Of a DNA stretch of 64,000 bases, positions 16,657 through 39,425 are shown in pieces; position 1 is the first letter of the stretch, and each line of letters starts with the position of its first letter. Source of the stretch: an uncultured Paracoccaceae bacterium (GTDB lineage Bacteria > Pseudomonadota > Alphaproteobacteria > Rhodobacterales > Rhodobacteraceae); contig CANMQX010000004.1 of the NCBI GenBank assembly GCA_947500135.1, positions 310,001-374,000 on the forward strand, written 5' to 3'. The position numbers and the translations under genes are program-made. A model generated the notes under the pieces. That model was not told the DNA's origin and did no database searches. It saw only the letters and a program-made list of their open reading frames with translations.

Positions 16657-18897
16657 TTAGACAAAATCGACAAATTTGTTGAACGGCATCTCGCGCAGCC
16701 GCTCACCCGTCAGATCAAAAATGGCGCTCGCCAATGCGGGGGCGGCGGGCGGGACAGGGGGTTCGCCAATGCCACGGATCTTTTCCGCATTCTCCAACCC
16801 GCGCACGATGACTTCAGGTGTCTGATAAATCCGCATACCCTCGGCGGCATGGTAATTGGTCTGCTCTGCCATGCCATCCGTATAGGTGATTTCAGAATTG
16901 ATGGCATGGCCCAGCGCCCAGATGACACCGCCCTGCACCTGATTTTCAAAATTGACCGGGTCGATCACACGGCCCACATCTGCGGCCACATAGACACGGT
17001 CGATCTTGATGCCGCCATCGGTCATGGTGACATCAATCACCTCTGCCGCAGGCACGCCGAAACTTTCGACCAGCGCCAAACCACGGCCCCGGTTCGGGCC
17101 CATATCCTCACCCCAGTTTGACATCTCGGCGACGGTTTCCAGCACTTTGCGGTGCACTGGATGATTGACCAGCCGCAACCGTTCTTCCATCGGGTCGGCC
17201 CCGGCGGCGCGGATCATCTCATCCAAGGTATTCTCGGCAAAAAATCCGGCATGGCTGGCGCCCACAGACCGCCATGAACTGATCGGCCCCAATTCTGGCA
17301 CCCGATAACCGCGCACCCGCAGGTCGGGGATGTCATAAGGCATGTTCCATGCCCCCGCGACGATTTGCATATCCGGCCCCGGGACCGATTGACCGATCCG
17401 ACCCATTTGCGAGGACATCACAGAAGGGCAGGCAATATCCAGCGACAGCGCCTTGATCTGGCCATCGGCAACGACACCGCGCGCACGGGACATCGCGATC
17501 TGACGCGGGAAATCCTGCACGAAATCCTCTTCCCGGCTATAGGTCAGTTTGACCGGCGTGCCGGGCATGGTCACCGCAACCTCGGTTGCCTGTTTGATAT
17601 GTTCAAACTCCAGCCGGTGGCCAAAGCTGCCGCCGGAAAACTGGTTGATGAACGTCACTTGATCGGCCTCTACGCCCGCAATACCCGCGACCTGCTGCTG
17701 CACAAAACGGGGCATCTGATGGCCGGACCAGACCGTGACGCAATCACCCTCAACCAGCACGGTCGCGTTCAGCGGCTCCAACGGCTGGTGGGCAACGTAA
17801 GGCGCCCGGTTTTCAACGGCGATCACTTCGGCACCATCAAAGGCGGCATCCACATCGCCCTCCGCGCGCCATTCTTGATCCAAACGCTCCGCGGTGAAAC
17901 TGGCAGCGACCTCTTCCCAATGCCCGTCCATCTCGGCGGGGTAGGGGGCGGGGGCCCAATCGACATCAATCGCATTGACGGCTTCAATCGCGCGCCAGGT
18001 GTTATCAGCCACAGCCGCAACACCGTTCTTGACTGGAACGATGGATTTTACGCCGCGCATGGCCTCCGCCGCAGTCGCGTCAAAGCTATTCATCGGGCCA
18101 CCCTTACGCGGGTTCACCCGGACAGAGGCATGAACCATCCCCTCCATCGCGATATCGATCCCGAAATCCTGCGTGCCGGTGGATTTGGCATAGGTATCGG
18201 TGCGCATCATCGGCTTGCCGACCTTTTTCCAGTCAGCCGGGTCGCGCAGGGTAACCTTGGTGACGGGCGCAATCTTGGCAGCATCCGCAGCCAGATCGGT
18301 ATAAGCAATCGTGCTGCCATCGGGCAGCTCAACCGCCGCATTGGCGGTCTTCAACTGGTCAACAGGCACACCAGTGCGGGCACTGGCCGCTGCCTTGATC
18401 GTCTCGCGGGCAACGGCACCGGCCATGCGCAGCTTTTCATATTGATCAGGCATGGATGTAGACCCGCCGGTGCCTTGAATAGCAATCAGCTTGAGCACAC
18501 CGCCTGCCACATCGCGCATGGTTTCGGCCACGGTGCTATCGTCAAAGGACATGAACGGCACGCCTTCTTCGGCAAAGGCGGTGTTGTAATAGGCGGGGGA
18601 CGGTTCGCCAAAACTCAACGTGGCCTGCTCAACCTCGATATCCAGTTCCTCGGCGATCAGGGCGGCCTGCGATGATTGCACGCCCTGACCGATATCGGCA
18701 TGCGGCACGATCAGGGTGATGCCATCCGATGTCAGTTTGACGAAGGGGTTAAAGGCGGCTTCACCTTCGGCCAATCCGGCGGTTAACGGGTTAGCATGGG
18801 GGCGGGCGGCCATGAATGTGCCAAAGGCGACACCACCCAAAACAGCGGTAGAGCCAATCAGGAATGTGCGGCGGCCAATTGTCCGTAAACGTCCCAT
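16657..18897 (-). CDS. iorB: Molybdopterin-binding large subunit, isoquinoline 1-oxidoreductase beta type
   Basis: This 746-residue xanthine-oxidase-family catalytic subunit hydroxylates an N-heterocycle or oxidises an aldehyde. The N-terminus contains the twin-arginine signal RRTFLIG followed by a hydrophobic stretch, so the enzyme is exported folded. Family blocks include HADIGQGVQSSQAALIAEEL, GGSFGHRLEFEH and QGGVIWALGHAINSEI. With a 2Fe-2S subunit and a cytochrome c in the same operon it resembles periplasmic or membrane-bound aldehyde dehydrogenases of this family; IorB is the nearest name, not a proven substrate. Confidence 0.85.
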   Translation of the reverse strand: MGRLRTIGRRTFLIGSTAVLGGVAFGTFMAARPHANPLTAGLAEGEAAFNPFVKLTSDGITLIVPHADIGQGVQSSQAALIAEELDIEVEQATLSFGEPSPAYYNTAFAEEGVPFMSFDDSTVAETMRDVAGGVLKLIAIQGTGGSTSMPDQYEKLRMAGAVARETIKAAASARTGVPVDQLKTANAAVELPDGSTIAYTDLAADAAKIAPVTKVTLRDPADWKKVGKPMMRTDTYAKSTGTQDFGIDIAMEGMVHASVRVNPRKGGPMNSFDATAAEAMRGVKSIVPVKNGVAAVADNTWRAIEAVNAIDVDWAPAPYPAEMDGHWEEVAASFTAERLDQEWRAEGDVDAAFDGAEVIAVENRAPYVAHQPLEPLNATVLVEGDCVTVWSGHQMPRFVQQQVAGIAGVEADQVTFINQFSGGSFGHRLEFEHIKQATEVAVTMPGTPVKLTYSREEDFVQDFPRQIAMSRARGVVADGQIKALSLDIACPSVMSSQMGRIGQSVPGPDMQIVAGAWNMPYDIPDLRVRGYRVPELGPISSWRSVGASHAGFFAENTLDEMIRAAGADPMEERLRLVNHPVHRKVLETVAEMSNWGEDMGPNRGRGLALVESFGVPAAEVIDVTMTDGGIKIDRVYVAADVGRVIDPVNFENQVQGGVIWALGHAINSEITYTDGMAEQTNYHAAEGMRIYQTPEVIVRGLENAEKIRGIGEPPVPPAAPALASAIFDLTGERLREMPFNKFVDFV

Positions 18898-18900
18898 CGA

Positions 18901-19362
18901 TCAAGCCTCCTGCAATTTGGTTGCGGCAGTTTTGACGGCAGCGCGGATACGCGGATACGTACCACAACGGCAGAGGTTGCCACCCATCACGATATCAATG
19001 TCATCGTCGGTCGGTTCGGGGTTTGTTTCCAACAGCGATGCGGCCTGCATGATCTGGCCAGACTGGCAATACCCGCATTGGGCAACCTGATGTTCGACCC
19101 ATGCCTCTTGCACCGCATGCAGGGCATCGGGGGAGCCGAGCCCCTCAATCGTGACAACATCGGCACCTGCGGCACTGGCAGCAGCCACCTGACAGCTACG
19201 AACCGCCACACCATCCATATGCACGGTGCAGGCGCCGCACTGCGCGATGCCGCAGCCATACTTCGTGCCTTTCAGCCCCAATTCATCCCGCAGAACCCAC
19301 AAAAGCGGCATGTCATCCTCGACATCCACCTCACGTTCTTCGCCATTCACCAGTAGTCGCAT
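18901..19362 (-). CDS. iorA: 2Fe-2S small subunit, isoquinoline 1-oxidoreductase alpha type
   Basis: This 153-residue iron-sulfur subunit has an N-terminal plant-ferredoxin-like domain with [17 protein letters not shown]. Its C-terminal helical domain has [11 protein letters not shown] and [13 protein letters not shown], giving the two 2Fe-2S clusters that carry electrons from the molybdenum centre. ATG 19362 has GGAGG nine bases upstream. The protein has no signal and probably travels with IorB through Tat. It is the first gene of its operon and diverges from a TetR gene. Confidence 0.9.
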
Positions 19363-19380
19363 GTGATCGTTCCTCCGCTG

Positions 19381-19409
19381 ATTGGACAAATTGGCATTTT
19401 TAGTCTAAT
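19381..19409. promoter_or_regulatory. Candidate TetR operator between iorA and its divergent regulator
   Basis: ATTGGACAAA (19381-19390) and the reverse complement of TTTAGTCTAAT (19399-19409) agree at 8 of 10 aligned positions, which makes an imperfect inverted repeat in the short divergent intergenic region. The position fits an operator that controls iorA and possibly the tetR gene. It is a sequence-only guess. Confidence 0.4.
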
Positions 19410-19434
19410 TGACGTGTTTCCATCGACATGTCAA

Positions 19435-20010
19435 ATGAAAACCATGACCGACAAGACCCATATGATCGTTTCAGCCGCCGCAAATATGTTTGCGCGCTAT
19501 GGCTATTCCAAAACGACGATGGGCGATATCGCGGCCGAGGCGGGCGTGGCCCGTCAAACCGTTTATAACGCATTTCCGGGCAAAGAAGAAATTTTGCGGG
19601 CAGTTGTACGGCAGGCAGGCGATGAAACCTATACCGCCGTCATGGCATCATGGGCCGACACGGACAGCATTGACGACAAACTCTCTGCCTTTCACCAATA
19701 CGGGCCGCTGAAATGGTTCGAGGCGATCTGCGCCGCACCTGATCTGGCAGAATTGATGGATGGCCTGCATCGGGCGGCATCTGAAGAAATGTCGGCCCTT
19801 GATGTGAAGTGGCGGGCAGCGCTCTCCGACATGTTGCAGGATAATCTGCGCGGCGAGGATTACATGTCACCCAGCATCGATGACATTGTCGATTTCTTCT
19901 ACACCACCAGCCTGAATGCAAAACACGGGGTGCAGGACGCGACGCAATTGCGGTCGCGGCTTGCCACGATCAAACTGGCGACCTTGGCCTTGCTCAAGTT
20001 GCAGGACTAG
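19435..20010 (+). CDS. TetR-family regulator divergent from iorAB
   Basis: This regulator of about 191 residues has an N-terminal helix-turn-helix (AANMFARYGYSKTTMGDIAAEAGVARQTVY as the recognition region, about residues 14-43). A variable all-helical ligand domain follows. The start could be ATG 19435 or ATG 19444. By position it should control the divergent molybdoenzyme operon, perhaps in response to its substrate. Its 3' end overlaps the converging second TetR gene by four bases. Confidence 0.85.
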   Translation: MKTMTDKTHMIVSAAANMFARYGYSKTTMGDIAAEAGVARQTVYNAFPGKEEILRAVVRQAGDETYTAVMASWADTDSIDDKLSAFHQYGPLKWFEAICAAPDLAELMDGLHRAASEEMSALDVKWRAALSDMLQDNLRGEDYMSPSIDDIVDFFYTTSLNAKHGVQDATQLRSRLATIKLATLALLKLQD

Positions 20011-20570
20011 CTACGCAATTCCGCCAATGCCGGTATGCTGTCACGAATGATTGCGGCCCCAATATCGGTGCGCGCCAGCACCCGCAGCCCGACATATTGC
20101 GTGACCAGAAACTGCGACATGGGTTTGGGCGACACCGTCACCGAAGAATCTGCAAGCGCGTCTTCAAAAGCCTGGCGAAGTCGCTCCAGCGATTTCTGTG
20201 CAAATGCTGCGATATCATCATCCAGCAATGCAGCGCCCGCGATGGTCGAACACAGCAGGCAGCCCCGCCGATCACCCGCCTCCACGGCCTGCGCGATGGA
20301 TGAAAACAGGGCGGTGATGCGGTCCCACCCATCCCCCTCCGCGCGGGTCAGATGCGCCACCGCATCGCTGACCGCCTGCGCGTCATATAAGGCCAGCACC
20401 AACAGAAAGACCGATTTTTTGTCCTTGAACGCTTTGTAAAAGCTGCCCCGTGTCAGTTTCATACCGCTCAGCAGATCAGGCAGCTTCGCCTCTTCATAGG
20501 TCAAATCCCAGAAAACAGACATTGCATCTGCCAGGGCGGTATCGGTGTCAAATTCGCGCGGTCGGGCCAT
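20007..20570 (-). CDS. TetR-family regulator divergent from the DM13 gene
   Basis: This 187-residue TetR protein starts MARPREFDTDTALADAM. The helix-turn-helix lies about residues 27-50 (LSGMKLTRGSFYKAFKDKKS). The C-terminal domain includes GCLLCSTIAGAA, typical of the AcrR/YxaF-like branch. It probably represses itself and the divergent secreted DM13 protein through the inverted repeat at 20634-20655. Confidence 0.85.
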   Translation of the reverse strand: MARPREFDTDTALADAMSVFWDLTYEEAKLPDLLSGMKLTRGSFYKAFKDKKSVFLLVLALYDAQAVSDAVAHLTRAEGDGWDRITALFSSIAQAVEAGDRRGCLLCSTIAGAALLDDDIAAFAQKSLERLRQAFEDALADSSVTVSPKPMSQFLVTQYVGLRVLARTDIGAAIIRDSIPALAELRS

Positions 20571-20633
20571 GGCATCGGTTTATCGCAAGTTTTCGACTTA
20601 GGGAACCAGTCAGTACAGAATAACGAAACTGTG

Positions 20634-20655
20634 TTTGGAACTATTTGGTTCCAAA
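20634..20655. promoter_or_regulatory. Candidate operator between TetR gene and DM13 gene
   Basis: TTTGGAAC (20634-20641) and GTTCCAAA (20648-20655) form a perfect 8-base inverted repeat with a 6-base spacer. A further GGAACCAGT lies about 30 bases towards the TetR gene. The location in the divergent promoter region makes it a good candidate for TetR binding. Confidence 0.5.
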
Positions 20656-20723
20656 TGATAGCCCTCTGCCATCAGCTGCATGTCACCGCAGATTGAAAAC
20701 CAGAAAAATGCAAAGGATTACCC

Positions 20724-21122
20724 ATGAAATACGCACTCATCAAAACGCTCCCTATCATTGCTGCGGCGATGATCAGCCTTAGCCCCGCCGCTGCCGTGGC
20801 CAAGGACGATGCCAGCTCCGGTACGTTCACCGGCAAAAGCGATCATATCACCACCGGTGGTGTCCAAATCGTCAAAACGGCTGATGGCGGCGCTATCGTC
20901 ATCCTTGATACCGATTTCAGCCTAGATGGCGCGCCTGATCCGCGCGTGGGCTTCGGTACAGACGGGACGTATGTCGAAGCCAGCGATCTTGGCGTCTTGC
21001 AGGAGCTGAACGGTCTGCAAATCTATGTGGTGCCGCCAAGTGTCAACGTGGATGACTTCAACGAAGTCTACATCTGGTGCCTGCAATTCGGCGTCCCATT
21101 GGGCGTGGCCACACTCAGCTAA
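20724..21122 (+). CDS. Exported DM13-domain protein
   Basis: This 132-residue protein has a cleavable signal (MKYALIKTLPIIAAAMISLSPAAAVAK). A single DM13 domain covers about residues 33-131: GTFTGKSDHITTGGVQIV, DFSLDGAPDPRVGFG, LNGLQIYVVPPSVNVDDFN and the conserved cysteine in EVYIWCLQFGVPLGVATL. DM13 domains are proposed to act in periplasmic or extracellular redox steps; no substrate is known here. A clear divergent TetR gene suggests it is inducible. No other gene follows in the same unit. Confidence 0.75.
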   Translation: MKYALIKTLPIIAAAMISLSPAAAVAKDDASSGTFTGKSDHITTGGVQIVKTADGGAIVILDTDFSLDGAPDPRVGFGTDGTYVEASDLGVLQELNGLQIYVVPPSVNVDDFNEVYIWCLQFGVPLGVATLS

Positions 21123-21197
21123 GCCGGCGACGACGTTTCAAAACCCAAGGGTATACCGGCCATCCGGTTGCCCTTGGACTGGGCGCCATGCCCATTG

Positions 21198-21641
21198 TCA
21201 GGCCTCGCCGCAGCCACCCTTTGCAGCTGCCCGCATCTGCAACTGGCGCTGAACGGCCCCGAAATGAACGGGTTTATGGTCCGGGCGGGACGCCTTGATA
21301 TGCTGCAACTGCTTGATGACGGTCCTTTCGGGGTCGCGCAGGCGTTGCAAGGCGACGCGCAAAACCCAGGCCGGGCATTGCTCCACCGCAAAGGCATATA
21401 AGGCGACGCGCTGCTCTGCCGGGGTCAGGGCGTCATAAGGCACGGTGCTGCGCTGCTTGCGCATCAGATCAATGCCAAGCGGAATAAGGCGCGGCGCACC
21501 GGAAGGGTCGGGTGGGGCAACAAGCGCTGATTGATATGCAGTCGGTAACAAGTTGTGCAGGTTTTGCAACTTGCGTCGCACCACCTGGTGAATGGACAGC
21601 CACGCTGCCGCCACACTTATTAACAAAATACTAACAAACAA
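21198..21641 (-). CDS. Hypothetical membrane-anchored protein
   Basis: This is a 147-residue open frame with codon use like its neighbours. An N-terminal hydrophobic helix (FVSILLISVAAAWLSIH) is followed by a polar domain rich in Arg and Gln (LTPAEQRVALYAFAVEQCPA). I do not recognise the family. The only in-frame start covering the helix is a TTG at 21641 without a good ribosome-binding site, so the exact start is uncertain. It lies alone between the DM13 gene and rpsD. Confidence 0.45.
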   Translation of the reverse strand: MFVSILLISVAAAWLSIHQVVRRKLQNLHNLLPTAYQSALVAPPDPSGAPRLIPLGIDLMRKQRSTVPYDALTPAEQRVALYAFAVEQCPAWVLRVALQRLRDPERTVIKQLQHIKASRPDHKPVHFGAVQRQLQMRAAAKGGCGEA

Positions 21642-21756
21642 AGGCTTTATCTATCCATCTTGCTGCCCCGGGGCCTTGTTAGCGGGGGGGTATGTTTACA
21701 ATTTGACGCAAACGGCACCTTATTTCGTCAACTTCAAGGGTGGCGCGCCATCTTCG

Positions 21757-21784
21757 TTGACACGGGACGAATCCTGTCTATAAG
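21757..21784 (+). promoter_or_regulatory. Strong housekeeping-type promoter of rpsD
   Basis: A perfect -35 TTGACA (21757-21762), 16-base spacer and -10 TATAAG (21779-21784) lie upstream of rpsD. Transcription would start near 21791 and leave a leader of about 113 bases. Confidence 0.75.
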
Positions 21785-21790
21785 CCGCGC

Positions 21791-21903
21791 ATTCATTGGT
21801 GTTGGTGGCCCCCGCAAGGGGAAACCTGTCGCCCCGGCAAAATCCGGGGAGGAGGACAACGCCCTTCACGCCCCTAGGGGTTCTTTAAGAAGGAGATCAG
21901 CGT
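21791..21903 (+). other. Structured 5' leader of rpsD
   Basis: The leader holds three short GC-rich hairpins: CCCC-GCAA-GGGG (21810-21821, a GNRA tetraloop), CCCCGG-CAAAAT-CCGGGG (21832-21849) and the palindrome CCCCTAGGGG (21871-21880). A clear AAGGAG ribosome-binding site follows. Such a leader could let ribosomal protein S4 regulate its own synthesis, as S4 does on other leaders in enterobacteria and Bacillus. That role here is inference. Confidence 0.4.
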
Positions 21904-22524
21904 ATGACAAAACGTACCGCTGCCAAGTACAAAATTGACCGCCGGATGGGCGAAAACATCTGGGGTCGCCCAAAATCACCCGTCAACCGTCGTGAATATG
22001 GCCCCGGCCAGCACGGTCAGCGCCGCAAGGGCAAACTGTCCGACTTCGGTATTCAGCTGCGCGCCAAGCAAAAGCTGAAGGGTTACTATGGCGACCTGAC
22101 AGAAAAGCAGTTCCGCCGGATTTATGCGGAGGCCGAGCGGGTCAAGGGCGACACTGGTGAAAACCTTATCGGTCTGCTGGAACGCCGTCTGGACGCTGTC
22201 GTTTACCGCGCCAAATTCGTGCCAACCGTCTTTGCAGCCCGCCAGTTCGTGAACCACGGCCACGTGACCGTGAACGGCAAGAAGGTGAACATCCCATCTT
22301 ACCGCGTCAAAGAAGGCGACGTGATCGAAGTGCGCCAGAAATCAAAGCAATTGGAACTGGTGCTGGTCGCCGCACAGCTGCCAGAGCGTGACGTGCCTGA
22401 CTACATGGAAGTCGACCATTCGAAAATGGCCGCGACTTTCACACGGACACCAAGCCTCGGCGACGTGCCATACCCCGTCGCAATGGAACCAAACCTCGTG
22501 GTCGAATTCTACGCTAAAAACTAA
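21904..22524 (+). CDS. rpsD: 30S ribosomal protein S4
   Basis: This 206-residue S4 is a primary 16S rRNA-binding protein that nucleates 30S assembly. The N-terminal region includes [22 protein letters not shown]. The S4 RNA-binding domain is [20 protein letters not shown] with [19 protein letters not shown]. The start ATG has AAGGAG eight bases upstream. It is a stand-alone gene here, as in many alphaproteobacteria, with its own promoter and terminator. Confidence 0.97.
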
Positions 22525-22567
22525 CCGGGAAGCCGATCATCCCGGACCGGGTCCGGGGCTACAAAAC

Positions 22568-22593
22568 AAAGGCCGTGCAATCGCACGGCCTTT
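22568..22593. terminator. Intrinsic terminator after rpsD
   Basis: AAAGGCCGTGC (22568-22578) pairs with GCACGGCCTTT (22583-22593) around the loop AATC, and T follows. With A-runs on the other strand it also serves the converging gene that ends at 22600. Confidence 0.85.
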
Positions 22594-22599
22594 TGCGTG

Positions 22600-23016
22600 T
22601 CAGGACAAAGAAACGATAATAATCAGCAGGTACAGCATGACGAAACAGATCGGCACGTAAGTTTCCAACTGGGCCAACGATCCGCGCCCAAGCCGGTTGT
22701 AATGCGCCTCTTCGGCCGCAAAAAGCTGCAGGTCAAATCCAGCCTCAATCTCCTGCAAAACAGCAAACTTGGCGCTGTTCAGCTTTCGGTAACTGGATAA
22801 CAGCCCGATCCACGCAAAACAGATCAGCACACCGGCTATTGGAATAACAATGCGGGCGGCTTCTGCGCCGGCACTTTCAAGATAGCCATAAAACGCAACG
22901 ATGGCCCCATTCACACCCAGCAACCATTGATTGGCCGCAGCACGACGGTCGCTGACCTTTTCGGCGGTGGCGAGATAAAGCTTATAAAGGTCAAATGCGC
23001 TGGTCTGGTCAGTCAT
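22600..23016 (-). CDS. Small multi-spanning membrane protein (RipA-like) paired with a TIR protein
   Basis: This 138-residue protein has an N-terminal amphipathic segment YKLYLATAEKVSDRRAAANQ followed by helices at about 31-50, 55-76 and 118-137. From memory the start (YKLYxxxAxxxSxRRxxANxxxL) resembles the RipA-family octameric membrane proteins, which are often found beside putative defence genes; this needs a profile search. It starts three bases after the stop of the TIR gene, so the two are one transcription unit. A plausible role is a membrane pore or platform acting with the TIR protein. That is inference. Confidence 0.55.
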   Translation of the reverse strand: MTDQTSAFDLYKLYLATAEKVSDRRAAANQWLLGVNGAIVAFYGYLESAGAEAARIVIPIAGVLICFAWIGLLSSYRKLNSAKFAVLQEIEAGFDLQLFAAEEAHYNRLGRGSLAQLETYVPICFVMLYLLIIIVSLS

Positions 23017-23019
23017 GCA

Positions 23020-24102
23020 CTAGTCCCCCAACGGATCAACGCAATTGGCCTGCGGAAACGGCACTCTGTTGGTACAGAAACGACCGGTGGTCAATGAAAC
23101 GTCGGATTCACTACGGTTCGACTTTTGGTACACCACGCCGGTGAGTTCATGATCCTTGCCAAAGGTGATCGGACAGACCGAAGATTCGATCAGCCGGGAA
23201 TCGCATGTGGGTGTGGCGTAACCAAAAAACTCGCTTGCGGCCGCATTGCCCGAAAACGCCTCAACCTGCGACACCGACACACAGACCTTGTCAATCGCCT
23301 GACAGGCCTGACGCGCGCTTTGGTTCAGGGCGATGTCGGTCTGGGTGATGCCCGGAACGGGGATCCAATTCCGTGTGGTGGCTTTGCCAAGGGCAAACAT
23401 CATCCCCAGCGCCAACAGGATCACAGCCACCAACGGGGCATAAGCAATCGGCTGGCGAATGCGAAACCAGAGATAGCGCAGCGCTGAACTGATCCCATGC
23501 ACACCGAACAAGTCAAATATCGCGGCATCCGATTTCGGGTCCAGATTGACGCCGTATGTTTTCAGATCGTCCATGATGATCCGGCGGGCATCGTCGCTGC
23601 TGACCTCATCATCTTTCAACTGGTTCCATTTCTGGCGGATTTCGGTCAGTTGCGAGACATAGAAATGCATCTGCTGGCCTTGCAGATAATCAGGCTGCAC
23701 GGCGTCCTTTTCGGCATAAACAACGACCTTGCGCTGATCGCCTTTCAACTTGCTGAAATATTCAAATTCCTCGCGAATCCAATCCTCGGGCTCTTTGGGG
23801 CGCCGTGTGAGCACCTTAAATGCCTTCTTGAAACCCCGCCCAACCGCACCGGCAACGGCGCGCAATCTGGACGTTTCCGGCGCGCGCGACAGATAGATCA
23901 ACAGCGTGTCGGTCTTTTCCAGACTGTCATAGATATGATCCGCCCAGCGGCCAGCCGGAAACTCACCCATCTTGGTGATACGGTTGCCTAGATTGGACAA
24001 AAGCACGCTCAGACCGTGGACTTCTGGTTCGTCGCGACTGCGATAGGATAGAAAAATATTCTGATCCGACAATTGCTTTAGTTCAATATCAATATCCGCC
24101 AT
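23020..24102 (-). CDS. TIR-domain protein with one membrane helix and a Cys-rich exterior domain
   Basis: This is a 360-residue protein. Residues 14-130 look like a TIR domain: [15 protein letters not shown] as box 1, [22 protein letters not shown] as the central strand and helix, and W108-I-R-E-E as the W-x-x-x-E segment that carries the catalytic glutamate in NAD-cleaving TIRs (E112 here). A basic insert (82-105) lies between them. One transmembrane helix spans about 218-239. The C-terminal 120 residues contain six cysteines (267, 274, 300, 310, 343, 354), which suggests a disulfide-bonded periplasmic domain. It has no known adaptor partner. Function is unproven; antiviral signalling is the leading idea. 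Confidence 0.6.
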
Positions 24103-24296
24103 GGAAACGCCTTGGGTCTGAAAATGACTGTCTTAAAATAATGCCTTCAATAGCACGAAAGCCTGCTTTTTCCAAAACTGTCGCCAATTTCGATACAGCG
24201 AGCGGCGAAAACGGTGATGGCAGACAGAAAACTGCACCTATGCTAGAAGAGTTGAAAATCAGAAGATTATCGCCCCAACAGCGCCCGAGGTGCCCC

Positions 24297-25430
24297 ATGT
24301 ATACAACAACGCCGCCCTTCACGCTTGGCATTGAGGAAGAATACCTGCTGGTCGATCTCGAAACGCTGGATTTGACCGCCGCGCCCGAGGCGCTGATGAA
24401 TGACGCAGCCGATGTGCTGGGCGAGAAAGTCAGCCCCGAATTCCTGCAATGCCAGATCGAGGTCGGCACCGGCGTGTGTGACACAATCGCGGATGCGCGG
24501 GCTGATCTGGCACATCTGCGCAAAACTGTGGCCGATCTGGCTGGGCGCCATGGGTTGGCCCCCATCGCGGCATCAACCCATCCCTTTGCAAAATGGCAGC
24601 AACAGGAATTTACCGACAAAGAACGGTATCGGACGCTGGAACGAGATCTGGCCGGGGTCGCCCGGCGCATGTTGATCTGCGGGATGCATGTGCATGTCGG
24701 GATCGATGATGACGATCTGCGCATGGATCTGATGCGGCAATTCACCTATTTTCTGCCGCATCTGCTGGCGCTGTCCACGTCATCCCCTTTCTGGGAAGGC
24801 GAAGAAACCGGCCTGCGATCCTACCGGCTGACAGTGTTCGACAATCTGCCGCGTACCGGCTTGCCGCCGACCTTCAACAGCCATGTGGAATATGAACGGG
24901 CGATCCAGACGATGGTCAAGACCGGCGTGATCGAGGACAGCACCAAGATCTGGTGGGACCTGCGGCCATCAGGGCGGTTCCCAACGCTCGAGTCCCGGAT
25001 TTGCGATGTGTCGCCTTTGCTGGATGACACCATCGCCATTGCTGCCCTGATCCAAAGCATCTTTCTCATGCTGTTTGATCTGGGGATGAAGAACCAGCGC
25101 TGGCGGATCTATGATCGGTTCCTGATCGCCGAAAACCGGTGGCGGGCACAGCGTTATGGCGCATCCAAGGGCTTGATCGATTTCGGGTTAGGGCAGATCA
25201 AATCCTGCGAAGACCTGTTTGATGAATTGCTCGAAACCCTCGCCCCGCATGCCGCCGCGCTTGGTTGCACCAAAGAGGTGATGCACACAAAAACGATCCT
25301 CAAAAACGGGACAAGCGCCGAACGACAGACAAAAATCTATCACGATGCGATGGCCGATGGGGCCAGCGCAGATGACGCCTTGCAGGATGTCGTGCGCGGA
25401 TTGGTCGCGGAATTTTCGGTCGGGCTCTAA
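24297..25430 (+). CDS. Carboxylate-amine ligase, YbdK / GCS2 family
   Basis: This 377-residue member of the glutamate-cysteine ligase type 2 family forms amide bonds with ATP. The start [12 protein letters not shown] is the family ATP/substrate loop. [10 protein letters not shown] and [20 protein letters not shown] carry further conserved residues. YbdK-type proteins have weak gamma-glutamylcysteine synthetase activity and an unknown true substrate. I chose ATG 24297 because GAGGTG precedes it and the 52-residue upstream extension is not conserved-looking. The 194-base gap to the divergent TIR gene holds both promoters. Confidence 0.85.
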
Positions 25431-25480
25431 TTCTTAACAGCCTGTTGCGCGCGCTGCATTAATGGGCGCATCCGGTACGT

Positions 25481-25555
25481 TGGGGTCCGACGTTTTGCCG
25501 ACGTCGCGCCGACGCTCTGCCGACAGATGATTTCACCAGAAAAACCAGCATTAAC
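25481..25555 (+). repeat. 11-bp-phased CCGACGNNNNG array, copy 1
   Basis: Three and a half units follow one another with an exact 11-base period: 25487-25497, 25498-25508, 25509-25519, then CCGACAG (25520-25526). A less conserved tail ends in GCATTAAC (25548-25555). A second array with the same architecture and a related tail lies on the other strand at 39352-39425. The element is in the 266-base region before hisC, which otherwise contains no gene I can support. Confidence 0.65.
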
Positions 25556-25696
25556 ATATGATTCGTCAAAACCGGGCGTTGCACCGGCCCCGGCGCACCG
25601 TGCGGTACTGTGACAACTGCCACCGCGCGCTACCTTGGTACTGGTCACCGCCGGGGCAGGGCGATAGAACGGGCGAAACGACAGGGAACGGACCAC

Positions 25697-26782
25697 ATGG
25701 GCAAGGCCATTCAACCGCAGCCAGGCATCTTGGATATCGCGCTTTATCAAGGCGGGGCATCACATCTGGACGGGATGAGCAATGTGCTCAAGCTCTCATC
25801 CAACGAAAATCCGCTGGGGCCCAGCGATGCCGCCAAAGAGGCGATGATCAGGGCCAGCCACGACCTGCACCGTTACCCCCCGACAGACCACAGCGCCCTG
25901 CGTCAGGCGATTGCGGATGTGTGGGATGTGGATGCGGGTCGGGTGTTCTGCGGTGTCGGTTCTGGCGACGTTTTGAAACTGCTGGCAGAGGCTTATGCAG
26001 GCCCCGGTGATGAGGTTGTGTTCACCGAACACGGGTTTTCGATGTACCCGATCTATGCGCATGCCTGTGGGGCCACACCAGTGGTTGTGGCCGAGAATGA
26101 ACGGGTCGTGGATGTCGATGCGATCCTGAAAGCCTGCGGACCCAAGACGCGGTTGGTCTTTATCGCCAACCCCGCCAACCCGACAGGCACGATGATCGGC
26201 AGTGCAGAGGTGGCGCGATTGGCCGAAGGATTGCCGCCACAAGCGCTCTTGGTGCTTGACGGGGCCTATGCCGAATTTGTCGATGGGTTTGACGCGGGCA
26301 AGGCACTGGTCGAGGCACGCGATAACGTCTTCATGTCGCGCACATTCTCCAAGATTTATGGGCTGGGCGGCATGCGCGTTGGCTGGGGCTACGGGCCGCA
26401 GGCGATTGTCGATGTACTGAACCGGATCCGGGGGCCATTCAACTTGTCGGCCCCCGCATTGGCTGCGGCAGAGGCGGCGGTGCGCGATACTGAGCATACC
26501 GAGAAATGCCGCGCTGAAAACGCAAAATGGCGCGACTGGCTGGCCAATGCACTGGCCGAACTCGGCGTGCCGTCAGACACTTCAACCGCCAATTTCATCC
26601 TCGCCCGTTTTGCTGATGAAACAGAGGCAAATGCCTGTGACGACCACCTGCGCAGCGCCGGAATTATTGTGCGCAAAGTGGTGGGTTACGGGTTGCCACA
26701 CTGCTTGCGGGTCACGGTTGGCGACGAAAGCGCTTGCCGCCGCGTTGCCCACGCGGTGGCGCAATTCAAGGGGGCCGATTGA
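25697..26782 (+). CDS. hisC: Histidinol-phosphate / aromatic aminotransferase
   Basis: This 361-residue class I/II PLP aminotransferase of the HisC group has [11 protein letters not shown] near the N-terminus. NPANPTGT binds the cofactor, and the Schiff-base lysine is in [17 protein letters not shown]. The pairing with a prephenate-dehydrogenase gene (1-base overlap) suggests use in tyrosine/phenylalanine synthesis as well as, or instead of, histidine synthesis. ATG 25697 lies behind AGGGAACGG. An upstream 29-residue extension is unlikely. Confidence 0.88.
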
Positions 26783-27705
26783 TGGCGCAAATCTATGAAC
26801 GCGTGGCACTGATCGGGCTGGGGCTGATCGCGGGGTCAATGGCTTATGCGATGCGCCGCGATGGTCTGGCGGGCGAGGTTGTGGGCTATGCCAAATCGGC
26901 TGAGACCCGCACCATCGCCCGCGAACTTGGCATGTGTGACCGGGTCACGGAAAGTGCTGCAGAGGCCGCAAAAGATGCCGATCTGGTGGTGCTATGTGTC
27001 CCCGTCGGCGCGATGGAGGCTGTCGCGAAGGAAATCGGGCCGGTCCTGAAACCCGGTGCGACCGTCAGTGATGTCGGTTCGGTCAAACGCACAGTGGTCG
27101 AGGCGGTCGGGCCTTATGTCGCTGATAATGTGCATTTTATTCCCGCGCACCCGCTTGCCGGGACAGAACATTCCGGCCCGCGTTCCGGTTTTGCAGAGCT
27201 TTTTGAAGGGCGTTACACGATCATTGTGCCGGTTGGCGGCAGTGATCCTGACGCGGTGCAACGATTGGCGACGCTTTGGCAAGGCATGGGCGCGCTGGTC
27301 GAAGAAATGGACCCCGAACATCATGACCTTGTGCTGGCGGTGACCAGCCACACACCGCACCTGATCGCCTATACGATGGTTGGCGTGGCCGATGATCTGC
27401 GCCGGGTCACTGATAGCGAAGTGATCAAATATTCCGCCGCAGGTTTCAGGGATTTCACCCGGATTGCAGCCTCTGATCCAGTGATGTGGCGTGACGTTTT
27501 CCTCAATAACAAAGAGGCGACGCTGGAAATTCTGGGCCGGTTCACCGAAGAGTTATTCGCACTGCAACGGGCAATCCGGCAGGGCGATGGTGATCATCTG
27601 CATGACTATTTTACCCGGACCCGCGCGATCCGGCGCGGTATTATCGAGGCGGGGCAGGATACTGATGCCCCTGATTTCGGACGTGTGAAAGCACGCAAGG
27701 GGTGA
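26782..27705 (+). CDS. tyrC: Prephenate / arogenate (cyclohexadienyl) dehydrogenase
   Basis: This 307-residue NAD(P)-dependent enzyme oxidatively decarboxylates prephenate or arogenate on the way to tyrosine. The N-terminal Rossmann motif is VALIGLGLIAGSMAYAMRR. FIPAHPLAGTEHSGP carries the catalytic-site histidine region and VTSHTPHLIAYTMV the second. The ATG overlaps the hisC stop (TGATG). The next gene also overlaps by one base, so hisC-tyrC-extensin form one unit. Confidence 0.87.
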   Translation: MAQIYERVALIGLGLIAGSMAYAMRRDGLAGEVVGYAKSAETRTIARELGMCDRVTESAAEAAKDADLVVLCVPVGAMEAVAKEIGPVLKPGATVSDVGSVKRTVVEAVGPYVADNVHFIPAHPLAGTEHSGPRSGFAELFEGRYTIIVPVGGSDPDAVQRLATLWQGMGALVEEMDPEHHDLVLAVTSHTPHLIAYTMVGVADDLRRVTDSEVIKYSAAGFRDFTRIAASDPVMWRDVFLNNKEATLEILGRFTEELFALQRAIRQGDGDHLHDYFTRTRAIRRGIIEAGQDTDAPDFGRVKARKG

Positions 27706-39351: not shown

Positions 39352-39425
39352 CCTTAACGCAAGGTTTTGCTGCAATATCAGCGGTCGGCGACGCGTCGGC
39401 AAAACGTCGGCATCGCGTCGGGCAC
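39352..39425 (-). repeat. 11-bp-phased CCGACGNNNNG array, copy 2
   Basis: On the minus strand three units (39420-39410, 39409-39399, 39398-39388) and a terminal CCGACCG (39387-39381) repeat with an exact 11-base period. They are followed by a tail ending in GCGTTAAG. The tail aligns without gaps to that of copy 1 (23 of 36 bases identical, counting from the last CCGAC). The 17-mer CGTCGGCAAAACGTCGG is identical in both. It lies in the 500-base region between rsgA and the RAYT gene, which holds no supported protein gene. Confidence 0.65.

Follow-up and report, generated by a model that had tools for sequence, protein, structure and literature searches.

In Thoeris, a TIR protein makes a signal for a separate effector, and the known effectors are SIR2, TM-macro or caspase-like proteins, the caspase-like effector being that of type IV (PMC12847820). 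A related arrangement has been described from phages of Firmicutes, in which TIR genes adjoin genes for 2TM SLATT proteins that are predicted to be membrane effectors regulated by ADPr (PMC9503650), and a similar prediction has been made for SLATT proteins beside TIR genes in another study (PMC7159879). The published TIR-NLR system is a single gene that combines TIR with a STAND NTPase and TPRs (PMC9122126).

The window examined here is a stretch of 64,000 nucleotides from the genome of an uncultured marine Paracoccaceae bacterium, assembled to 4.57 Mb in 34 contigs. A sequence-only reading had drawn attention to two genes in the window, one for a TIR-like membrane protein and the other for a small membrane protein. 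The ORF list confirmed both on the (-) strand, separated by a gap of 3 nucleotides. The first gene (23020..24102) encodes a protein of 360 amino acids, which was characterized with Pfam, Kyte-Doolittle hydropathy and hhalign and contains the reported box 1 motif FLSYRSRD, W108 and E112, and the second gene (22600..23016) encodes a protein of 138 amino acids that belongs to the 8xMP family (PF24838), as assigned with Pfam and modelled with AlphaFold. The pair is flanked on one side by a convergent gene for ribosomal protein S4, ending at position 22524, with a terminator-like hairpin between this gene and the end of the pair (22568..22593, (-)), and on the other side by a divergent gene for a GCS2-family ligase. 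No promoter-like site was identified 5' of the TIR gene, the one site found being at chance level.

The ten neighbouring genes, from position 16657 to 27705, belonged to ordinary Pfam families or to none, and their sole match in PADLOC was that of a TetR regulator to mad1 over 22 residues (E 0.0006). The defence-island enrichment that had been suggested as a check was thus not seen among these neighbours with either Pfam or PADLOC, and a defence-island setting was rejected. Neither a nucleotidyltransferase or cyclase nor a ThsA-type effector (SIR2, TM-macro or caspase-like) was found among the ten genes. It was also noted that a segment of about 31 bp at positions 39380-39410 has a 90% inverted match near position 25487 (L115:2700-2729) that was also found in three relatives, possibly a small repeat.

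The Pfam TIR_2 model matched residues 16-145 of the first protein with 25.5 bits (E 2e-5), which is below the cut-off of 28, and a dedicated TIR profile was therefore built from 28 rows, consisting of 27 TIR domains from the same bacterial family and the TIR domain of L090, a Rhizobium locus described below. In an hmmsearch with this general profile, residues 16-78 scored 13.8 bits and residues 107-130 alone −3.1 bits. The hhalign comparison of residues 1-185, aligned with the relative in L003, against the 28 TIR domains gave a probability of 92, an E-value of 6.6e-7 and a score of 43.48, against at most 19.22 for 30 column-shuffled queries. Judged from these comparisons, the protein carries a divergent but real TIR domain (23668..24060, (-)) that covers residues 15 to about 145, the hhalign match starting at residue 15. 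In both the hmmsearch and the hhalign alignments, E112 (codon 23767..23769, (-)), located within the motif DWIREEF, fell in the column of the conserved glutamate, which we take to be the catalytic TIR glutamate. A basic insert of 28 residues (residues 79-106; 23785..23868, (-)) separates strand C from the E112 helix; it was largely kept in L003 and is possibly a membrane-contacting or oligomerisation element.

According to the Kyte-Doolittle analysis, the sole hydrophobic stretch of the TIR protein is located at residues ~219-237 (23392..23448, (-)) and corresponds to a predicted single membrane helix. All six cysteines (267, 274, 300, 310, 343 and 354) lie beyond the helix, in the C-terminal segment of residues 238-360 (23023..23391, (-)), which is predicted to be periplasmic, and none in residues 1-237, in agreement with the earlier description. 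The 15 residues before the helix contain three K/R and the 15 residues after it two, which is a weak sign that the TIR side is cytoplasmic. Pfam gave no significant family match for the C-terminal segment, and no NTPase or repeat family in the protein as a whole. PF08937 (ThsB_TIR) had no match in the window TIR protein, nor elsewhere in its genome. Disulfides within the exterior segment, like outside-in signalling and defence activity of the pair, are predictions from the sequence.

For the TIR protein, AlphaFold was run on a two-sequence alignment and gave a model with a pLDDT of only 42, and no TIR structure was present among the best 50 matches listed in a fold search with this model, none of which was significant. 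Since the model was poor, the profile comparisons stand in for the structural match that had been proposed as a test. The dN/dS ratio between the gene and its one relative was estimated at 0.077 over 236 codons, with a dS of about 2, near saturation, which indicates that the gene is under purifying selection. Membrane helices were predicted in 7 of 30 TIR ORFs in a sample from the family, in which several ORFs were cut at the ends of the loci and one (L061) was in the wrong frame, and a TIR domain with a membrane helix is therefore not by itself rare.

The second protein of the pair matched PF24838 with 101.7 bits (cut-off 30; E 3.9e-29) over model positions 1-135 of 136, which places it in the octameric membrane family that its start had been said to resemble. 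Octameric assembly of the window protein is putative and follows from the Pfam description of 8xMP as an octameric membrane protein family. Its AlphaFold model, made from eight sequences, was all helical with a pLDDT of 82.7 and had helices at residues 3-49, 54-91, 98-108 and 112-137. Two of the three membrane helices in the earlier description were also marked by the Kyte-Doolittle analysis; the third, which is the first in order, was seen in the AlphaFold model only. When PDB and BFVD were searched with the model, no fold match reached an E-value of 0.001, and pore homology is thus without support. No SLATT model in Pfam or NCBIfam matched the window protein, and the 8xMP protein of another locus (L097) scored only 12 bits against SLATT_4, for which the cut-off is 55, and we therefore rejected 8xMP as a member of the SLATT group. 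A comparison set searched for SLATT_4 gave no matches, and the control genomes were likewise empty.

Neither protein of the window had a match in PADLOC or NCBIfam. When PADLOC was applied to ten 8xMP proteins, including that of the window, eight had no match and the best values for the other two were E 0.014 (L028) and E 0.026 (L155), both to other families. Ten relatives (seven 8xMP and three TIR proteins) gave no NCBIfam match above the cut-offs, the TIR protein of L096 scoring 20.3 bits against the type III Thoeris model, for which the cut-off is 220.

The window TIR protein is rare. It had matches in 2 of 56 genomes of the genus, its own included, its own genome was the sole match among 394 genomes of the family and 289 of the class, and no homologues were found in the plasmids and viral contigs. 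The single relative (L003 in genome G023) was 77% identical over residues 1-236 and was located in a different genomic place, after a gene that by eye is aminopeptidase-like. Its gene runs into the contig edge before any partner position, and no 8xMP match was found in that genome, which is 72% complete, in a search that had no positive control. The refuting condition that had been named, homologues whose two genes never adjoin, is thus answered in part for this exact TIR protein. Any TIR_2 match was present in 51 of 198 genomes of the family. One of the family genomes (G072, 3.9 Mb) contained 21 TIR_2 matches, and the genome of the window (G000) contained three further ones (C1:677302, C19:1433 and C5:159995), one of which has an internal stop. 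PF24838 exceeded its cut-off in 12 of 295 genomes of the family and 17 of 289 genomes of the class. Of 72,556 plasmid records, 21 contained a match to the window 8xMP protein, which had none in the phage collection and none in the viral contigs when used as a single query; the 8xMP protein of L155 also had none in the phage collection.

Comparisons with three relatives indicated that the pair occupies a variable site. In G044, which has the highest identity of the genus in the ligase (99%) and no match to the window TIR protein, similarity to the window extends to position 22599 and returns at position 24269, such that the stretch 22600..24268 is swapped for about 4.4 kb of unrelated genes. 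The corresponding positions were 22594 and 24279 in G050, with about 5.7 kb in between, and 22522 and 24283 in G048, with about 13.8 kb in between. As the breaks in similarity flank the pair, the TIR and 8xMP genes represent the whole cargo of the site in the window. By eye, the genes that the three relatives carry at this site look metabolic.

To place the pair in a broader context, we read the neighbours of 46 8xMP genes other than that of the window, which included 11 of 11 loci from the family, 18 of 19 from the class, 7 of 21 from plasmids, 7 of 7 from viral contigs and 3 of 4 further places in the phylum. In 19 of the 46 loci (family 3/11, class 4/18, plasmids 6/7, viral contigs 6/7, phylum 0/3), the 8xMP gene was immediately preceded by a TIR gene in the same orientation, and linkage of the two kinds of gene is thereby borne out in other genomes. 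The TIR-linked loci include chromosomal ones, plasmid-borne ones from three phyla and others on viral contigs, and the gene order TIR-then-8xMP is conserved in many lineages. The shares for the plasmids and viral contigs are biased upward, since mostly the best rows were used (7 of the 21 plasmid records, with 14 left out) and 10 of the 11 rows in the alignment for the viral scan were TIR-linked. The other loci left out were L080 (class, partial), G928 (phylum, partial) and those that fell short of the PF24838 cut-off, six in the family and five in the class. One place retrieved in the phylum search (G474) was the same as L110 and counted once, L159 and L160 from one genus were both counted, and L159-L161 were read with 1.5-kb flanks only.

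The 46 loci contain 475 non-overlapping ORFs of at least 90 amino acids. The general TIR profile, one of whose 28 rows is the TIR of L090 itself, identified 20 TIR ORFs in these loci (E 0.01 or better, ORFs of at least 80 amino acids), 16 of which were located right before the 8xMP gene and 4 elsewhere. Of the 18 partner TIRs scanned, 16 exceeded the cut-off of PF08937 (ThsB_TIR). Some assignments relied on other evidence: the TIR of L094 was accepted on a TIR_2 match below the threshold (E 0.0026), that of L023 on home-made profiles, L022 on Pfam and a ThsB-type profile, L098 on a Pfam match over a fragment, and L090 on profile comparisons rather than Pfam, for which the best 25 of 51 families were listed. 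Two of the TIR-8xMP pairs, L023 and L098, are visibly broken. No directly upstream TIR gene was recorded in 27 of the 46 loci, including L099-L108 and L159-L161; these counts include L100, where the upstream gene lies beyond the contig end and cannot show, and L153, which is TIR-like by eye only.

In a phylogeny of the 8xMP proteins without eleven divergent or broken sequences, eight of the L099-L108 proteins formed a clade with support values of 93/93, within which seven clustered with 99/99, and the TIR-linked forms were not recovered as one clade. Several loci showed other arrangements. In L153 (2953-4908), the gene 5' of the 8xMP gene encodes a protein of 651 amino acids that by eye begins like a TIR and has TPR-like repeats, and for which Pfam recorded TPRs only. 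In L159 (2048-3401, (-)), a gene of unknown type for 202 amino acids and a gene that by eye is deaminase-like are located 5' of a TIR-less 8xMP gene. Genes adjoining TIR-less 8xMP genes in L110 (4577-5635, (-)) and L029 (5731-6915, (-)) matched deoxyribosyltransferases, under the cut-off, and prokaryotic STING, with scores for the latter of 32 bits in L110 and 20.3 bits in L029 (cut-off 27.1), and L111 has a smaller deoxyribosyltransferase-like gene 3' of the 8xMP gene. The matches in L110 and L029 suggest that a nucleotide enzyme under the control of STING may likewise have 8xMP as its partner.

The closest relative of the window 8xMP protein was found in L090, on a plasmid of Rhizobium leguminosarum, with 51% identity and a grouping with the window protein in the tree at support values of 98/99. 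In the operon of L090 (1328-5435), the 8xMP gene follows, after one base, a gene for a protein of 1215 amino acids that is annotated as NB-ARC and has an N-terminal TIR domain and C-terminal WD40 repeats. Exchange was also seen on the effector side: a TIR protein 46% identical to that of L155 precedes a gene for an ICE-like (caspase) protease in a Salmonella record. Similar TIR proteins are thus found with differing effectors, which is the pattern of Thoeris. On an actinobacterial plasmid (L091:1505-5465), a TIR-caspase pair was located 1.7 kb upstream of a TIR-8xMP pair.

Compared with the described systems, the TIR-8xMP loci are most similar to Thoeris of types I, II and IV in that a TIR gene adjoins the gene for an effector and that most of the 8xMP-linked TIRs match PF08937. 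The window pair differs in that the partner is 8xMP and in that the TIR, a divergent one of the TIR_2 type, carries a membrane helix itself and has no match to PF08937. Thoeris proper was rejected for the window pair, which has no ThsA-type effector among its ten neighbours and no ThsB_TIR match. The claim that the pair is unlike known TIR systems holds to this extent; it fails as a description of an isolated oddity, since 8xMP genes follow ThsB-type TIR genes in several phyla, which makes Thoeris-like signalling the nearest known kind. The pairs of TIR and 2TM SLATT genes in phages also combine TIR with a small membrane protein predicted to be an ADPr-regulated effector, but the partner in the window matched 8xMP and no SLATT model; the published SLATTs may or may not include 8xMP proteins (PMC9503650). 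The similarity to TIR-NLR is that the nearest relative of the window 8xMP follows a TIR-NB-ARC-WD40 protein, whereas no NTPase or repeat family was found in the window TIR and the system as published is a single gene (PMC9122126). With the membrane effectors of CBASS and the 2TM-beta protein of Panoptes (PMC12657230), a small membrane killer protein adjoins a nucleotide enzyme, a role that is putative here, but none of the ten neighbours of the window pair encodes a nucleotidyltransferase or cyclase and PADLOC had no match for its proteins. None of the literature matches listed named a TIR-8xMP pair; most subscription journals were outside the scope of the search, and a prior description is possible. 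The association of TIR with small membrane proteins has been proposed before, and what is new here is that the partner is 8xMP and that the TIR is anchored in the membrane.

Our preferred reading, which we hold with slightly better than even confidence, is that the pair is a compact, mobile, Thoeris-like module of a signal enzyme and a membrane effector, with a membrane-anchored TIR that is shaped like a receptor and a putative role in defence. We infer its topology, the NADase activity and messenger of the TIR, the pore action of 8xMP, sensing in the periplasm and the role in defence, which would be connected as follows. The TIR domain would face the cytoplasm, as in the predicted topology, and when triggered would turn NAD+ into an ADP-ribose-type messenger by means of E112. 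The messenger, or direct contact within the membrane, would switch the adjoining 8xMP oligomer, which would permeabilise or depolarise the inner membrane, such that the cell stops and the spread of the phage is limited. The trigger would enter through a small TIR protein in most of the TIR-linked relatives and through the TIR-NB-ARC-WD40 fusion in the Rhizobium relative; in the window, where the TIR continues into a membrane helix and a cysteine-bearing exterior segment, the envelope may be where the trigger is perceived. The chain from trigger through TIR, messenger and 8xMP to membrane failure is proposed by analogy, from the swapping of partners, the known chemistry of Thoeris (PMC12847820, PMC12948488) and the published SLATT prediction. 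Counting for the module are the upstream TIRs in 19 of 46 loci and in 6 of 7 viral-contig loci, the ThsB-type partners, the grouping of the window 8xMP with that of L090 in the tree, the effector swap, the published TIR-SLATT gene pairs of phages and the variable site. Counting against it are the 27 of 46 loci without an upstream TIR, the low share in the less selected samples (3/11, 4/18 and 0/3), the lack of defence neighbours, the metabolic-looking cargo of the site, the rarity of the TIR protein, its second copy in which no partner can be seen, and the absence of an 8xMP fold match in PDB and BFVD.

Other readings of the pair were considered. The polarity could be reversed, with 8xMP sensing membrane damage and clustering anchored TIR domains, so that the TIR is the executioner through depletion of NAD+. 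The anchoring of the window TIR would make contact with 8xMP in the membrane easy, and some defence TIRs act through NAD+ depletion (PMC9122126), but most TIR-linked relatives have a small ThsB-type TIR, and the TIR of Thoeris signals to a separate effector (PMC12847820). Both features favour the TIR as the upstream enzyme, and we think reversed polarity rather unlikely. Somewhat less probable still is a unit for envelope stress or homeostasis, outside defence, in which the TIR protein is a membrane sensor that tunes 8xMP, the latter acting like RipA in the envelope biology of Francisella. RipA is presumably a member of the 8xMP family. The TIR-less 8xMP loci, such as L099-L108 (in L100 the upstream gene is not visible), and the lack of defence genes around the window pair are as expected for such a unit; the patchy distribution, the carriage on plasmids and viral contigs and the variable site fit accessory defence better.

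The short, tightly spaced two-gene layout would also suit a toxin-antitoxin-like arrangement, with either membrane protein restraining the other and the cell dying once this restraint is lost, and Panoptes provides a precedent for inverted logic with a 2TM effector (PMC12657230). However, the sequences contain no hint of an antitoxin and the related TIR-8xMP pairs resemble pairs of enzyme and effector, so we regard this reading as improbable. That two unrelated membrane genes became neighbours by chance would be compatible with the finding of one other homologue of the exact TIR protein, for which a contig end hides the partner position. Given that 19 of the 46 other 8xMP loci share this gene order and that TIR genes are rare in the family (51 of 198 genomes), chance adjacency is very improbable and was rejected.

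A more specific version of the module draws on the logic of Toll-like receptors, which consist of an outside segment, one membrane helix and a cytoplasmic TIR. The window protein has the same three parts by prediction; it differs in the inverted order, with the TIR at the N-terminus, and in the lack of a known ligand domain, so the likeness is one of analogy only. In this version, which we offer tentatively and as a minor possibility, the exterior cysteine domain would sense phage adsorption or envelope injury, the single helix would activate the TIR and the product would open the 8xMP channel. The pair would then be an outside-sensing member of an unnamed class of TIR-8xMP defence systems with exchangeable sensors around 8xMP, namely a small TIR, a TIR-NB-ARC-WD40 protein, a membrane TIR and perhaps a deoxyribosyltransferase-STING protein.

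If the module reading is true, 8xMP would be a further class of Thoeris-like effectors, whose pairing with TIR extends over at least three bacterial phyla and includes plasmids and viral contigs, and such a class goes unflagged by PADLOC in the ten 8xMP proteins tested. The version in the window would show a possible wiring of a TIR immune enzyme to the cell surface, and the pair, with two genes in 1.5 kb, offers a compact system in which to test whether bacterial TIR proteins signal from the outside in.
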